DNA from: Pseudotabrizicola sediminis
GTDB lineage: Bacteria; Pseudomonadota; Alphaproteobacteria; Rhodobacterales; Rhodobacteraceae
DNA length: 64,000 nucleotides
Assembly: GCF_004745575.1 (NCBI RefSeq)
Contig: NZ_RPEM01000007.1
Span: forward strand, 106,661-170,660
Direction of reading: 5' to 3'
Made by a program: the position numbers and the translations under genes. This document shows positions 28,667 through 38,179 of this stretch, in pieces. Numbering within the stretch: the first letter of the stretch is position 1; every line of letters begins with the position of its first letter. The notes beneath the pieces were generated by a model. That model searched no databases. It was given only the letters and a program-made list of their open reading frames with translations, and was not told the DNA's origin.

Positions 28667-28691
28667 AACGTGGCCGCTGAGGTCGGGTTCC
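28667..28691 (-). promoter_or_regulatory. EcfG promoter for the DUF1328 gene
   Basis: On the minus strand GGAAC (28691-28687), 16 bases, CGTT (28670-28667). Exact match to the alphaproteobacterial EcfG consensus; the expected start site is about 50 bases before the ATG. Confidence 0.75.
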
Positions 28692-28872: not shown

Positions 28873-28897
28873 GGAACCGGATGGCGGTTATCGCGTT
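28873..28897 (+). promoter_or_regulatory. EcfG promoter for the PLDc_N/holin/helical-protein operon
   Basis: GGAAC (28873-28877), 16 bases, CGTT (28894-28897); 79 bases upstream of the ATG at 28977. Confidence 0.75.
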
Positions 28898-32392: not shown

Positions 32393-34219
32393 TCAGGACA
32401 GGTCATCCTCATCATCCGCCTCGGGACGGGCAACCACCTTGGGGGCCACCCGTTCTTCCCCTTCCGACAGGGGACGCATGGGGAAATCCATGTTCAGCAC
32501 GTAAGCGTCTCCGCTGCGGCCGCGGGTGATCTTGCCGCTCAGCTGCTGGGAAAAAGCCGTCAACAACTGTGATCCGAAACCATCCTTGCCGTCGGCATCC
32601 GGACTGTCCTTGCCGTCGCCCCCTGACGGCATCAGGCTATTTTTCAAGGTGAACCGCGCAGTGCTGTTTTCCAGCCGCCGCAGCGTCAGCTCGACCCGCG
32701 CCTTGCCGACGGCGGCGGTCGGGGAATGCTTGATCACATTCGCCATGCCCTCGGTCAGGAACAGCGCCAGCGGCACGGCTTGATCGGGTGTCAGGCGGAT
32801 ATCATCCACCTGCGCGTCCAGCGCAAACCGCCGCCCGGGGGCGGACCCGATCCGCAGCAGATCGGTGGCGACACGCGGCAACAATTCATCGGCGCGCACA
32901 TCGGTCAGCCCGCTGGTCTGGTACAGCTCGCGGTGCACGGTGGCGAGGCTGATCACCCGGTCCTGAACCGTACGCATCGCCTCTTTCGCCTCGGCGGTGC
33001 GGGCACCGCGCAGCTGCATATTCAGAATGGATGCGATAAGTTGCAGGTTGTTCTTCACCCGGTGGTGAACTTCCCGCAGCAGCACTTCCTTCTGATGGAT
33101 CGTGTTTTCCAGATCCGCCTCGTTGCGCACCACTGCCTCGGTCATCCGTTCATAGGCCCGCCCGACCGAGCGCAGTTCCAGCGCGGCACCTGCCATATCC
33201 AGTCGCGGCAACTGCCGCTCTCCGGCGGCGAAGGCCGTGATCCGGTCGCGCAATTGCCGCACATGCCGCAGGACCTGACTTTCTGACGCAAGCAGGGCCA
33301 CCAGCAAACTTGCCGCCCACATCATCATCGGGAACAGAAAGGCCGGAAACGCCCCTTCGAAAACCGTGTTATCCAACCGGTTCGCGGGCCACGACCCCAG
33401 CAAATACAACGTGCCCGCCTGCAAGGGTACGATGGCAAAGGCGCGTCGCTCTCCCGTTGCAGTTCTGGCGACAAAGCTGGTGCCAGTGCCGTCGACAAAA
33501 CTTTCCAGTGGACGTTTCACCGGCAGGTTGTCACGCGCGGCATCCATCCCGATCGAGGATGTCAACAACACGCCTTTTCCGTCAAATGTCATCAGGGACA
33601 ACGGCTGTGCTTCATCACGTACATTCACCAGCACGCGCCGGTCAAGGGCTTCATGTGGCAAGGACACAAAGGCAAAGCCCATCAAGGCACCAGACCGGTC
33701 CCGCACCGGATGCGACGCAATAAGAACCGAAGTCTTCGACACCGGCCCATGTGGGTTTACCGCAATTTTCGGGCCGGGGTCCGTCAACAGCTGAGCCATA
33801 GCATCGGTGCCAGAAAGATCGCGCTGTTCATTCCGGGCACCGCACAGCATCTGGCCGTTCACGTCAACATAGCCGGCAAAGGTGATCAGGCCGATATCCG
33901 CCTCGACCACGTTGTCCATGACTTCCCGGCAAGCTTCCAGATTGGCCGCCACACCGCCGCGCAGCACTGCCCGCAGAACCACGGCAAGCGTGGCGGTCTT
34001 GGTCTGGGCCTTGACGATTTCTGCAATCAGCGGGTTGGCCGCCATCAGGGTTTCCCCCCTGATCACATTGGTCACGCGTGCCTCGGCCAGCTGCGCGGTT
34101 TTCAGACCCTGAACATAGCTTAACATGGCAAGCGGCAGCAGTGCCACGCCCATCACCGCCATCAAGCGAAAGCCCAGCCCTGAAAACCGCCGCCGCACGG
34201 CGGCACTTTTCGTTGTCAT
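32393..34219 (-). CDS. HWE/HisKA_2 sensor kinase of the EcfG locus
   Basis: 608 residues. A transmembrane helix at about residues 17-40, a periplasmic sensor of about 260 residues (Cache-like; conserved cysteines in EACREV and MLCGARNE), a second helix near 310-330, a linker, and the phosphoacceptor helix REVHHRVKNNLQ follow. The ATPase N box (FLTEGMANVIKHS) is recognisable, but the G1 DxGxG box is not: the position reads LKNSLMPSGGDGKD, followed by an acidic insert and GFGSQLL. Start overlaps the ecfG stop (ATGA). Likely controls PhyR, as kinase or phosphatase. Confidence 0.88.
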   Translation of the reverse strand: MTTKSAAVRRRFSGLGFRLMAVMGVALLPLAMLSYVQGLKTAQLAEARVTNVIRGETLMAANPLIAEIVKAQTKTATLAVVLRAVLRGGVAANLEACREVMDNVVEADIGLITFAGYVDVNGQMLCGARNEQRDLSGTDAMAQLLTDPGPKIAVNPHGPVSKTSVLIASHPVRDRSGALMGFAFVSLPHEALDRRVLVNVRDEAQPLSLMTFDGKGVLLTSSIGMDAARDNLPVKRPLESFVDGTGTSFVARTATGERRAFAIVPLQAGTLYLLGSWPANRLDNTVFEGAFPAFLFPMMMWAASLLVALLASESQVLRHVRQLRDRITAFAAGERQLPRLDMAGAALELRSVGRAYERMTEAVVRNEADLENTIHQKEVLLREVHHRVKNNLQLIASILNMQLRGARTAEAKEAMRTVQDRVISLATVHRELYQTSGLTDVRADELLPRVATDLLRIGSAPGRRFALDAQVDDIRLTPDQAVPLALFLTEGMANVIKHSPTAAVGKARVELTLRRLENSTARFTLKNSLMPSGGDGKDSPDADGKDGFGSQLLTAFSQQLSGKITRGRSGDAYVLNMDFPMRPLSEGEERVAPKVVARPEADDEDDLS

Positions 34220-34791
34220 GCGGCCTGGAATCCTGACCGGCCCATCACGGCAAGGGTCGCGCCGGACTGTTCCGCCAGAATATCCTCGCCCTCGGCCAGA
34301 CCCAGCATGTCGCATAGCCGGGCCCGCGCACGGTTGGCGCGGCTTTTCGCCGTGCCGATTGCGACACCCATCATCTGGGCTGCTTCTTCATAGGAATAGC
34401 CGTTTGCACCGACCAAGATCAGAACCTCACGGTGCTCTGGCGACAGTTTGTCAAAAGCGCGGCTGAAATCGGTGAAGGCAAGCCGGCCATCATGATGCGG
34501 TTTTTCGAACATCGTCGCGGCATGAACGCCATCGGTGTCCTGCACTTCGCGGCGGGTCTTGCGCTTTGACGAGAAAAATGTGTTGCGCAGGATGGTAAAT
34601 AACCAGGCACGAAGGTCGGTGCCAACCGTGAACTTCTCGATATTCGACCATGCTTTCAGGATTGTTTCCTGCACAAGATCATCCGCCTCGCTTACATTGC
34701 GGGTCAGCGAGATCGCAAAGGCGCGCAGCGATGGGATGTGGTTCGCCATTTCGTCACGCGGATCAGCCTGAACAGCGGAAGCGGAAGTCAT
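34216..34791 (-). CDS. ecfG: General stress response sigma factor EcfG
   Basis: ECF sigma factor of the ECF15/EcfG group, 191 residues. Region 2 has SEADDLVQETILKAW and AWLFTILRNTF; region 4 has LSPEHREVLILVGANGYSYEEAAQMMGVAIGTAKSRANRAR. It directs transcription from GGAAC-N16/17-CGTT promoters, of which several occur nearby. It overlaps nepR and the kinase by four bases at each end, giving a nepR-ecfG-kinase unit with an EcfG promoter upstream: positive autoregulation. Confidence 0.94.
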   Translation of the reverse strand: MTSASAVQADPRDEMANHIPSLRAFAISLTRNVSEADDLVQETILKAWSNIEKFTVGTDLRAWLFTILRNTFFSSKRKTRREVQDTDGVHAATMFEKPHHDGRLAFTDFSRAFDKLSPEHREVLILVGANGYSYEEAAQMMGVAIGTAKSRANRARARLCDMLGLAEGEDILAEQSGATLAVMGRSGFQAA

Positions 34792-34949
34792 TTTTTTGAC
34801 TCCTTGGCCTTCAACTGTTCAAGCAACAGCTTGAACCGATCAGGTACATCCTCTTTCAACGCATCTTCATAGACACGCTTCAGGTTTTCGTCGATGTCCT
34901 TTCGCAAACTGGACTTCTGGTTGTCACCTGCCATATGTTCCATCATCAT
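34788..34949 (-). CDS. nepR: Anti-sigma factor NepR
   Basis: Short protein of 53 codons (48 if the later in-frame ATG at 34934 is used). The core SLRKDIDENLKRVYEDALKE and VPDRFKLLLEQLKAK match NepR, which holds EcfG inactive until phosphorylated PhyR binds it. Three ATG codons in tandem begin at 34949. Its stop overlaps the ecfG start (AAAAAAATGAC). The gene is below common ORF length cut-offs and easily missed. Confidence 0.9.
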   Translation of the reverse strand: MMMEHMAGDNQKSSLRKDIDENLKRVYEDALKEDVPDRFKLLLEQLKAKESKK

Positions 34950-34978: not shown

Positions 34979-35004
34979 GGAACCGAACGCTAATCCAGTG
35001 CGTT
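34979..35004 (+). promoter_or_regulatory. EcfG promoter for phyR
   Basis: GGAAC (34979-34983), 17 bases, CGTT (35001-35004); 35 bases before the phyR ATG. It overlaps almost completely with the oppositely directed promoter at 34986-35011. Confidence 0.85.
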
Positions 35005-35011
35005 TGGTTCC
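34986..35011 (-). promoter_or_regulatory. EcfG promoter for nepR-ecfG, interleaved with the phyR promoter
   Basis: On the minus strand GGAAC (35011-35007), 17 bases, CGTT (34989-34986). Its -10 element lies inside the spacer of the phyR promoter and vice versa, so the two cannot be occupied at once. Confidence 0.85.
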
Positions 35012-35038: not shown

Positions 35039-35848
35039 ATGAATGCCTCTGCGACCTTCGATCTGACTTCGGCAATCGCGGCCGACCTTCCCTTTTTGCG
35101 CCGCTACGCCCGTGCCCTCACCGGCAGCCAGGACAGTGGCGACCGATATGCTGCCGCCACGCTGGAAAGCATCCTGATCGAAGACACACCGGTGCGTGAA
35201 GCAACGACCCCAAGGATTGGCCTGTTCCACTGCTTTCACCGGGTCTGGGCAAGTGCGGGTGCTCCGCTGGATGTCGAAGACGACATTCTGGCCAGGCGCG
35301 CGCAGGTTCATATGTCGGGCCTGACGCCAAATTCGCGTGAGGCGCTTTTGCTGCATGCGATCGAAGGCTTTGATCGCCCCGCCATCGCAGAAATCATGGC
35401 GCATGACGAAAGTGATGTGCAGGCGCTTCTGGACGCCGCCATCCGCGAGATGGAAGCGTCGGTGACCGGCAAGGTGATGGTGATCGAGGATGAGGCGATC
35501 ATCGCGATGGATATCGTCGATATCGTCGGCCAGATCGGTCACAAGGTCACCGGCGTCGCACGCACCCGCCGTGAAGCGGTGGAACTGGCGGCACGCGAGC
35601 GGCCTGACCTGATCCTGTCGGATATCCAGCTGGCTGATGATTCCTCGGGCATTGATGCGGTCAACGATATTCTGGCTCAGTTCGACGATATTCCGGTTAT
35701 CTTCATCACCGCCTTCCCCGAACGGCTGCTGACCGGCGACAAACCGGAACCGGCATTCCTGATCACCAAACCGTTTTCCGAAGAGCAGGTGCGCTCGGCC
35801 GTCAGCCAGGCGATGTTCTTTTCATCGACCCAAACACTGCACGCCTGA
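35039..35848 (+). CDS. phyR: General stress response anti-anti-sigma regulator PhyR
   Basis: 269 residues. The N-terminal half is a sigma-like domain (regions 2 and 4, residues 10-140), which mimics EcfG and captures NepR. The C-terminal receiver starts at KVMVIEDEAIIAMD. Phosphoacceptor is D195 (LILSDIQL), acidic pair E150/D151, with T224 and K244 conserved, so the receiver is intact. GGGGAG precedes the ATG. Divergent from nepR-ecfG and followed by a strong terminator. Confidence 0.96.
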   Translation: MNASATFDLTSAIAADLPFLRRYARALTGSQDSGDRYAAATLESILIEDTPVREATTPRIGLFHCFHRVWASAGAPLDVEDDILARRAQVHMSGLTPNSREALLLHAIEGFDRPAIAEIMAHDESDVQALLDAAIREMEASVTGKVMVIEDEAIIAMDIVDIVGQIGHKVTGVARTRREAVELAARERPDLILSDIQLADDSSGIDAVNDILAQFDDIPVIFITAFPERLLTGDKPEPAFLITKPFSEEQVRSAVSQAMFFSSTQTLHA

Positions 35849-35930: not shown

Positions 35931-35950
35931 TGCTGAATGAAAATCTCTGG

Positions 35951-35975
35951 GAACCTTTTGATCAAACGTGCGTTT
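35951..35975 (+). promoter_or_regulatory. EcfG promoter for the secreted-protein gene
   Basis: GGAAC (35951-35955), 16 bases, CGTT (35972-35975). It lies downstream of the in-frame ATG at 35937, which supports the start at 36030. Confidence 0.78.
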
Positions 35976-36029
35976 GTCATCCAAGCGCAGGTAATAGCCT
36001 GCGCGGCCATTGCACGAAAGGATCTACTC

Positions 36030-36512
36030 ATGTTCCGCAAAATTCTGATGACGACCACCGCCTTGTTCCTCGCAAATGCCGCGTTTGCTCAGGGTACATT
36101 GATTAAAGAAGTGTCCGTCGAGGCCGACATTACCGCAATTTCAAACGCGGAGGCCGCAGCCTACTGGACGAATGCCGCCGACGATCTGGAAAACGCCATT
36201 CTGGCGCGACTGGTTGACCGTACCGGTGAGGAAGGATCGAAGATCCTGATCGACATCGACGAACTGTCGCTGGCCAACTCGTTTCAAAACCAGCTTGGCC
36301 TGGAAGATGCTGTATTGGTCGGGTCGGTCAACATCACTAGCGAAACCGACAATTCCAAGTTTGACAACTACGAGTTGACGGTCACTGCCCTGAATGCACA
36401 GGCTTTTGCCGCCGATGGCACGGTCCTGGAAGGCGCATTTACCGATACCCCGGAATATTATGCTGCCCTGATCGCGGCCTTTGCCGATGGCGTTGTAAGC
36501 CGTCTGGACTGA
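36030..36512 (+). CDS. Secreted hypothetical protein under EcfG control
   Basis: 160 residues. A signal peptide (MFRKILMTTTALFLANAAFAQ, cut after about residue 21) is followed by an acidic, soluble domain without cysteines that begins with a helix around NAADDLENAILARLVDRTGEEGSK and continues with beta-rich sequence. AAAGGAT precedes the ATG. I do not recognise the family. Flanked by an exact EcfG promoter and a strong terminator, so it is a single-gene stress unit. Probably periplasmic. Confidence 0.75.
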   Translation: MFRKILMTTTALFLANAAFAQGTLIKEVSVEADITAISNAEAAAYWTNAADDLENAILARLVDRTGEEGSKILIDIDELSLANSFQNQLGLEDAVLVGSVNITSETDNSKFDNYELTVTALNAQAFAADGTVLEGAFTDTPEYYAALIAAFADGVVSRLD

Positions 36513-36573: not shown

Positions 36574-37068
36574 TTACTTGGCAGTCGCGCGCAGCATCCA
36601 GGCAGCCTTTTCGTGAAAGGCGCAGCGGGCGGTCAGCAAATCTGCGGTCGCCACGTCTTTCCCCTCTTCGGCCTTTTCGATCACATCGCGCATCCGGCGC
36701 ACCACGGCTTCGTGGTCGCTTGCCAGATCTTCCACCATATCCTGCGCCGAGCCCAGTTTGGCCGGGTCTTTCACGCAAGACATCCGCGTGATTTCAGACA
36801 TCTGAAACGGGGCAATCCGCCCAAGGGCGCGGATCCGCTCTGCAAGATCGTCAGCCGCCTGAAACAGGTCGGTGTACTGGGCTTCGGTCAGCACATGGAT
36901 GGAATGGAACATCGGGCCTTCGACATTCCAGTGAACCGCATGGGATTTGAACAAAAGACGGTATGTGTCAGCCAGCGAATCGCTCAGCCCCTTGGCGATT
37001 GCTGTCACGCCAGTGATACCGGTGTCGATCTTGTCAGAGCCGGGCACGGCCTTCAGTGCTTCAGACAT
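36574..37068 (-). CDS. dps: Dps-family DNA-binding ferritin
   Basis: Dodecameric mini-ferritin protecting DNA from iron and peroxide, 164 residues. The ferroxidase-site blocks HAVHWNVEGPMFHSIHVLTEAQYTDL (histidines and the acidic ligands D and E) are intact. AAAGGACCACTT precedes the ATG; a 54-codon upstream extension spans the promoter and is rejected. An exact EcfG promoter stands upstream, fitting dps as a known general stress response target. Confidence 0.94.
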   Translation of the reverse strand: MSEALKAVPGSDKIDTGITGVTAIAKGLSDSLADTYRLLFKSHAVHWNVEGPMFHSIHVLTEAQYTDLFQAADDLAERIRALGRIAPFQMSEITRMSCVKDPAKLGSAQDMVEDLASDHEAVVRRMRDVIEKAEEGKDVATADLLTARCAFHEKAAWMLRATAK

Positions 37069-37121
37069 AAGTGGTCCTTTCGAAATACGGGCAGCCGGAC
37101 ATGGCCCCCTCATGGCAAAAG

Positions 37122-37147
37122 AACGTTCGGGTGACAGGCGCAGTTCC
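37122..37147 (-). promoter_or_regulatory. EcfG promoter for dps
   Basis: On the minus strand GGAAC (37147-37143), 17 bases, CGTT (37125-37122); 54 bases before the dps ATG and directly abutting the stop codon of the diguanylate cyclase gene. Confidence 0.8.
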
Positions 37148-38179
37148 CTATTTCGGCCCCGGATCCGGCGTGAAGGCCATGACACGCCCGCGTCCGGCAC
37201 GTTTGGCCGCGTAAAGCGCTGTGTCTGCATCGTTCTGCATCACCTGCGCGTTGCGCAGGCGGTACAATGTCGACACCGTCAGCCCCGCACTGGCCCCGAT
37301 CTGGCAGGTCTGCCCATCAAACACCATCGGCTGCGCAATGCCTGCGATGATACGATCAGCCACCACAGTCAGACGGGACAGGTTTGTCAGGCGTGGAAGC
37401 AGGATGACAAACTCATCCCCGCCCACCCGGGCAACCAGATCGCCCGCACGGGTTTCATTTGACAGCACCTTGGCAACCACCCGCAGCACATGATCGCCCG
37501 CCGCATGGCCCAGCCTGTCGTTCACCGCCTTGAAATGATCCAGATCCAGATGCATCAATGCAAAGGGCTTGTCTGCGGCAACCGTCCGCGCAAGCGCCAG
37601 ATCCAGCGCGCGGCGGTTGCGCAGCCCGGTCAGCGTATCGGTCAGCGCCAGTTCTTCGGCATGCGACTTGGCCCCCTGCAGTCGCTGGTTCAGCCGCTGC
37701 AATTCCCCCATCACGGCACGCTTCACCTCAACCAGGTACAGCAGCTCTACCGTCAGGTCGGTGGCCGCGAAATCGGCATCGGTCAGGCCGTGGGTGCGGA
37801 CAGCATCGACCACGCCAATCCCGAACGACAGGTTCAGCACGATGCCGCCCGCCTCATCCGTCATCGCAAGACCGCGGAATTCCGCCCCTGCGTGTCGCAG
37901 GCACAGATGCAGCCTTTGGCCCTGTCGCGCCACAAGGTCTGCCATGACCTCGACTCCGCCCGGGCGACGCACCTCGAACAGGTCAAAGAAATTTCGGCCG
38001 ACCAATTCCAGCCCTGCCCCGATCTTGGCCAGCGTCGGGCCACGGGCCGTGATCCTGCCATGGGCCGACAGGTGCAGGTGCATCGGCATCAGCCGGTCCA
38101 TCGCCGCAATTCCCAATCCAACCGGGGGGATGCAGTGGCCTTCATCCGGTCTGCGCCGGTCATCCATCCGGACATCCAC
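37148..38179 (-). CDS. Diguanylate cyclase with HNOBA-like sensory domain
   Basis: 343 residues. The N-terminal 150 residues resemble the haem-NO-binding-associated domain (GRNFFDLFEVRRP). A short coiled coil (LQRLNQRLQGAKSHAEEL) leads to a GGDEF domain with an intact RVGGDEF active site and an RxxD inhibitory site five residues before it, so it should make c-di-GMP with product inhibition. It starts 3 bases after the H-NOX-like gene, so the pair probably work together as sensor and output. Confidence 0.9.
   Translation of the reverse strand: MDVRMDDRRRPDEGHCIPPVGLGIAAMDRLMPMHLHLSAHGRITARGPTLAKIGAGLELVGRNFFDLFEVRRPGGVEVMADLVARQGQRLHLCLRHAGAEFRGLAMTDEAGGIVLNLSFGIGVVDAVRTHGLTDADFAATDLTVELLYLVEVKRAVMGELQRLNQRLQGAKSHAEELALTDTLTGLRNRRALDLALARTVAADKPFALMHLDLDHFKAVNDRLGHAAGDHVLRVVAKVLSNETRAGDLVARVGGDEFVILLPRLTNLSRLTVVADRIIAGIAQPMVFDGQTCQIGASAGLTVSTLYRLRNAQVMQNDADTALYAAKRAGRGRVMAFTPDPGPK

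Follow-up and report, generated by a model that had tools for sequence, protein, structure and literature searches.

A candidate two-way EcfG promoter with interleaved elements between phyR and nepR-ecfG in Rhodobacteraceae

Divergent control of phyR and nepR-ecfG by the sigma factor EcfG is already established for the alphaproteobacterial general stress response (GSR), as the accessible sections of PMC4814048 and PMC8103513 set out, and both transcription units are described as EcfG-driven in the latter. The promoter consensus appears as GAAC-N16,17-C/GGTT in the available text of PMC4814048 and as GGAAC-N16-17-C/GGTT in that of PMC12148442. In E. coli, bidirectional promoters have been described (Warman et al. 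2026, PMC12825309) at which, according to the accessible portion of the paper, transcription starts flank or lie within a shared -10 element, mostly 18 (also 10 or 23) bp apart, and at which the two directions compete only at high activity, with no competition at basal activity. We found no prior statement that the phyR and nepR-ecfG promoters are interleaved in the accessible running text of PMC4814048, PMC8103513, PMC7083833, PMC3892343, PMC3616915, PMC12148442, PMC6599016 and PMC5830050; an earlier notice elsewhere is possible, for instance in a figure such as Fig. 4A of PMC12148442, which draws promoter arrows.

The window analysed here is a 64,000-nt stretch from Pseudotabrizicola sediminis, and coordinates count from its position 1. 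In the gap between nepR and phyR, the plus strand at 34979-35011 reads GGAACCGAACGCTAATCCAGTGCGTTTGGTTCC. Exact GGAAC-N17-CGTT sites occur on both strands, at 34979-35004 (plus) and 35011-34986 (minus), each with a spacer of 17 and each with its -10 element inside the spacer of the other, just as the sequence-only reading had described them. That reading had one promoter face phyR and the other nepR-ecfG-kinase, an assignment that agrees with the Pfam matches and the divergent layout. The features are as follows.

32393-34219, minus strand: HWE/HisKA_2 sensor histidine kinase, downstream of ecfG (PF07568, PF07536; start codon inferred, Pfam scan over 32393-34237)
34216-34791, minus strand: ecfG, ECF sigma factor, with a 4-base overlap with the end of nepR (PF04542, PF08281)
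34788-34949, minus strand: nepR, anti-sigma factor (PF18557, 56.9 bits)
34979-35011, no single strand: putative interleaved two-way EcfG promoter core, a near-perfect inverted repeat (motif and dyad analysis)
34979-34983, plus strand: predicted -35 element GGAAC of the phyR-directed promoter, exact consensus match
34986-34989, minus strand: predicted -10 element CGTT of the nepR-ecfG-directed promoter, exact match, within the partner's spacer
35001-35004, plus strand: predicted -10 element CGTT of the phyR-directed promoter, exact match, within the partner's spacer
35007-35011, minus strand: predicted -35 element GGAAC of the nepR-ecfG-directed promoter, exact consensus match
35039-35848, plus strand: phyR, anti-anti-sigma response regulator with sigma-like and receiver domains (PF22029, PF22233, PF00072)

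With nepR-ecfG divergent from phyR, an HWE/HisKA_2 kinase nearby and all Pfam matches above the curated cut-offs, the genes form a PhyR-NepR-EcfG general stress locus. On both strands the sites have the make-up of an EcfG (ECF15) promoter, that is, GGAAC and (C/G)GTT separated by 16-17 bp near a gene start. Along the DNA the elements run -35 (plus), -10 (minus), -10 (plus), -35 (minus), within a dyad whose 12-nt arms are 92% complementary and separated by 9 nt. Transcription is predicted to start at about 35011 for phyR and about 34979 for nepR-ecfG, roughly 33 bp apart, which places each -35 element between the -10 element and the predicted start of its partner. Two sigma-70-like matches near the core were set aside as weak (9/12), and one of these, ending at 35040, would start transcription within phyR. 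RNA folding of both leaders gave no signal (z of 0.02 and 0.96).

Taken singly, GGAAC-N17-CGTT shows no enrichment across the 4.04-Mb genome (31 sites, against 46 for a reversed control), so the case rests on the pair and on its conservation. The interleaved pair occurs once in this genome, with none for the reversed control. Across 120 Rhodobacteraceae genomes, one per genus, the exact interleaved motif was found in 20 (control, 0), and NepR was matched in 53; with positions compared by eye, every one of the 20 motifs is about 250 bp or less from NepR, and the 120 genomes contain no other. Another divergent EcfG-like pair in the window, at 28667-28691 (minus) and 28873-28897 (plus), lies about 180 bp apart, so interleaving is not the default for divergent EcfG-like pairs here. 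Its minus-strand site faces a hydrophobic 62-aa frame and its plus-strand site a hydrophobic 71-aa frame.

Further EcfG-like sites flank the locus. An exact GGAAC-N16-CGTT at 35950-35974 (plus) lies directly downstream of phyR, before the frame 35937-36512, which has a signal-peptide-like stretch and no Pfam match and which, judging from this site, is likely an EcfG target. GGAAC-CGTT sites with similar spacing also follow phyR in several loci of the genus. At 37122-37147 (minus), an exact GGAAC-N17-CGTT lies upstream of a ferritin-domain (Dps-like) protein (frame 36574-37230); genes of this kind are often under general stress control.

PhyR was matched in all 16 genomes of the genus, near full-length in 13 and as receiver-domain matches only in the other three. 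The sequence-only reading had stated beforehand that it would fall if one half-site were not conserved in close relatives; both are conserved, with all four elements exact in 12 of the 13 loci (L001-L013), directly upstream of phyR and with each spacer at 16 or 17. L013, the remaining locus, instead carries a 27-bp GGAAC-N17-GTTCC dyad in which each -10 element has one mismatch. A wider scan of one genome per species with the pattern GGAACNNAACGN{9,12}CGTTN{1,2}GTTCC returned at least 117 stretches. Of the 117 listed, 99 have PhyR, or NepR plus EcfG, no more than 700 nt away, and 18 do not. The 99, among the matches listed, comprise 95 from Rhodobacterales and 4 from unclassified Alphaproteobacteria, in 45 named genera. 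The 18, likewise among the matches listed, come from Methylobacterium (4), Labrys, Rhizobiaceae (2), Brytella, Rhodospirillales, Rhodobacterales (2) and 7 other bacteria or archaea; most look like chance, and as neighbours were sought with the window's own proteins only, a distant phyR may have escaped among them. The two from Rhodobacterales, in Limimaricola (L090) and Sulfitobacter (L130), have the motif, and these window-protein queries found neither PhyR nor NepR close to it. Three Methylobacterium stretches (L039, L101, L144) are identical over their 33-bp match to the interleaved pattern, and the two from Rhizobiaceae (L132, L133) have another identical match in common; no phyR or nepR was found near either.

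Within the family we read 96 loci, comprising 56 of the 58 NepR places in the 120 genomes (the other two fell below the family cut-off) and 40 hand-picked extras drawn from the stronger part of the match list, some of them second loci from a single genome. Three lacked a readable PhyR, leaving 93, all with PhyR divergent from NepR. A spacer of 16 or 17 was a search condition in most counts rather than a finding, while the classification outside the family allowed others. An exact head-to-head pair of -35 elements at a gap of 20-23 is present in 72 of the 93 loci (shuffle mean 0.20, maximum 1 in 50 sets), the gap being 22 in 42 loci, 23 in 21, 21 in 8 and 20 in 1. All four elements are exact in 31 of the 93, with none in shuffles, and 68 of the 72 have at most one mismatch per -10 element. 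The phyR-side -10 is exact in 51 of the 72 and departs from CGTT in 21, and the nepR-side -10 is exact in 38 and departs in 34. EcfG promoters are likewise described as strict in the -35 and loose in the -10 in the available text of PMC7083833. The core is 32 bp long in 42 loci, 33 in 21, 31 in 8 and 30 in 1, and its centre is not conserved. Over the same loci the NepR motif is separated from the core by -5 to 164, and the PhyR match by 37 to 102; the gap thus stretches while the core does not. Judged from these sequences, the interleaved core is neither chance nor local.

The inverted repeat could instead be the binding site of a dimeric regulator rather than two promoters, and its near-perfect symmetry would suit such an operator, as would the many loci with a -35 pair in which both -10 elements depart from CGTT, an argument that is partly circular, the 72 loci having been chosen by that pair. 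The spacing is not that of a fixed dimeric operator, with the -35 gap at 20-23 in 72 of the 93 loci and at 17 alone in 6 others. A core length of 30, 31, 32 or 33 bp, together with a separate 27-bp register, also speaks against an operator, as does the match of all four window elements to the EcfG consensus. The variable core length and the unconserved middle fit sigma promoters rather than a rigid dimer operator, and we regard the operator as highly improbable.

When labelled for the tree described below, the 93 family loci divide into 73 interleaved (including the near match L224), 6 in the 27-bp register, 13 with the nepR-side site only and 1 with neither; the last two groups indicate that the layout is dispensable. 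The nepR-side-only loci, allowing one mismatch, are L172, L177, L305, L307, L313, L320, L322, L327, L328, L330, L331, L337 and L340. None of the family loci without a -35 pair has the phyR-side site only; when the pair is broken, it is the phyR side that is missing. Such one-sided loci, and the departures from CGTT counted above on either side, could mean that only one site is active in each species and that its partner is a relic. However, the window and 12 of 13 genus loci have every one of the four elements exact, GGTT falls within the EcfG consensus given in the accessible part of PMC4814048, and ends reading CATT or TGTT are present in motifs of EcfG-regulated genes in that of PMC6599016. 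A relic partner seems unlikely to us.

Other compact geometries occur at the same gap. The 27-bp register, GGAAC-N17-GTTCC, is found in 6 of the 93 family loci, in one clade (support 98), where at a spacer of 16 the phyR-side -10, GGTT, is the start of the partner's GGTTCC; it is also present in 4 loci of family f29, of the same class, and in L013 of the window's genus. With L150 included, GGAAC-N17-GTTCC lies in the phyR/nepR gap of 7 of the 93 loci, beyond chance (shuffle mean 0.05). GGAACC-N15-GGTTCC, also 27 bp, shows no genome-wide enrichment (30 sites, spread over 26 of the 120 genomes, fewer than for the reversed control, about 95, summed by hand), and 1 of the 30 sites lies at the phyR/nepR gap, at L150 in genome G068, inside an interleaved core.

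Outside the family, 97 loci were read, of which 16 lacked PhyR and 25 had PhyR without a divergent NepR; 56 were left, 39 of them non-duplicate. These 39 comprise 20 back-to-back pairs, 5 interleaved, 4 in the 27-bp register, 8 with one site and 2 with none, where L178, in the 27-bp register by its tree label and back-to-back by the outside-family classification, is counted as back-to-back. Four of the five interleaved loci belong to f34, with one mismatch in the plus-strand -10, and the fifth is L187, with one mismatch in a -35. A second close geometry recurs among the back-to-back pairs, 11 of the 20 having -35 elements 6-9 bp apart (L178, L181-L183, L192, L248, L251, L253, L255, L258 and L280); in several of them GGAAC is followed by a T-run on either side. 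A PhyR tree of 131 rows was built by a quick method, with 62 of 128 inner branches open and with L198 dropped for its short read-out; on it the interleaved label changes 10 times, at least 5 of these forced by starred branches, against a shuffled mean of 41.5. Interleaving prevails within the family and is also found, separately, in f34 and L187; the change counts cannot tell gain from loss.

Such a distribution bears on whether the layout does anything. Both EcfG promoters could be real and their interleaving an accident of a short gap, retained because moves and indels are costly. Because an insertion or deletion within the core alters the spacing of at least one of the two promoters, the register in part maintains itself, and its conservation is not proof of selection for exclusion. 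ECF promoters may, moreover, rarely be saturated, competition is absent at basal activity in E. coli (PMC12825309, accessible text), and the phyR-side site is missing in 13 of 93 family loci. On the other hand, interleaving is found at three places set apart on the PhyR tree (the family, f34 and L187), for which repeated gain is the simple reading, and as much as 164 bp separates the core from the NepR motif, which leaves space to part the promoters. We consider a retained accident possible but less likely than not.

Our preferred reading, towards which we lean slightly, is that the core is a two-way EcfG promoter which fires in one direction at a time and would thereby fix the ratio of EcfG-driven outputs at high occupancy. 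With standard polymerase footprints, 33 bp holds one polymerase at a time, and we infer that simultaneous binding of two polymerases on the core is sterically impossible. A polymerase bound one way would cover the opposite promoter, and its open complex should melt the partner's -35. Each firing event would then yield either phyR mRNA or nepR-ecfG(-kinase) mRNA, and both arms of the switch would be induced together. If the core were well occupied under stress, the ratio of initiation would be set by two binding and escape constants, whatever the level of EcfG, and total output would be capped. At low occupancy the two promoters would behave as independent and exclusion would be nearly silent; by analogy with the E. 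coli promoters, the same limitation of competition to high activity should apply at this core.

The sequence-only reading had proposed that exclusion could set the ratio of PhyR to NepR/EcfG, or add noise or bistability. We explored both in a well-mixed steady-state sketch with 3000 random parameter sets, in which constancy of the ratio is built into the exclusive case. Between low and saturating EcfG, independent promoters shifted the ratio by a median of 2.9 log2 units over the 3000 sets. The proposal on the ratio is thus plausible within the model, with constancy against EcfG level following from its construction. The proposal on noise and bistability fared worse. Since one binding event would shut out the other and the circuit contains positive feedback, exclusion could in principle commit cells to PhyR-rich or NepR-rich states, and 139 of the 3000 sets were still bistable with exclusion, 14 of which were not so without it. 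Without exclusion, however, 244 sets were bistable (125 common to both cases), so exclusion made bistability rarer; the same sigma factor drives both directions, which leaves no toggle; and in E. coli, competition lowered noise at PacrA/acrR, the single promoter examined for noise, according to the available text of PMC12825309. A bistability or noise device is on these grounds very unlikely, and fewer bistable sets together with lower noise in E. coli favour the ratio reading over it.

Published expression data from R. sphaeroides count against the ratio reading. In qRT-PCR reported in the accessible part of PMC5830050, membrane stress raised RSP_1272 (ecfG) mRNA in a PhyR-dependent manner without marked change in phyR, and was the only stress to raise RSP_1272; phyR rose 2-3 fold, and ecfG did not, under methylene blue in light (singlet oxygen), paraquat or diamide. 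Responses of phyR and ecfG that differ by stress are not a fixed-ratio co-induction. Other promoters or mRNA decay could explain the discrepancy. The family locus L163, which has an exact core and a NepR frame of 68 aa from the first ATG, is probably that of R. sphaeroides or a near relative, the same available text giving 68 aa for the NepR RSP_1273.

More tentatively still, a single EcfG-polymerase site with two outputs may hard-wire the stoichiometry of PhyR to NepR-EcfG, and lineages may have found several such geometries: interleaved over 30-33 bp, 27 bp with shared elements, or back-to-back with -35 elements 6-9 bp apart. Each would leave little or no space for two polymerases together. 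When the partner switch fires should be governed by the stoichiometry of PhyR, NepR and EcfG, and the interleaved promoter, widely conserved and almost locus-specific, is a candidate way of setting it in cis.

Three described systems invite comparison. The phyR and nepR-ecfG promoters of the alphaproteobacterial GSR (PMC4814048, PMC8103513) share with the core its genes, their divergence, EcfG control and the consensus; the available text of both papers describes divergence and not interleaving, and back-to-back pairs are the commonest arrangement outside the family (20 of 39). The conjugation control of pLS20 (PMC4207663) likewise places overlapping, opposite promoters within a genetic switch, but that switch, as the paper's title says, involves DNA looping, whereas at the phyR/nepR core no regulator beyond the sigma factor is evident. 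The remaining comparison is with the bidirectional promoters of E. coli, where pseudo-symmetrical DNA binds polymerase in two orientations, often giving divergent mRNAs (Warman et al. 2026, PMC12825309, in the portion available). Unlike those promoters, the core does not share a single -10 element, its two lying apart at 34986-34989 and 35001-35004; its elements are separate and alternate, its predicted starts are about 33 bp apart, and it would be read by EcfG and serve the genes of that factor's own activator and inhibitor. No member of that class by definition, the core should nonetheless work like one by mutual exclusion, which would extend the idea of the bidirectional promoter beyond sigma-70, to an ECF sigma factor that controls the genes of its own regulators.
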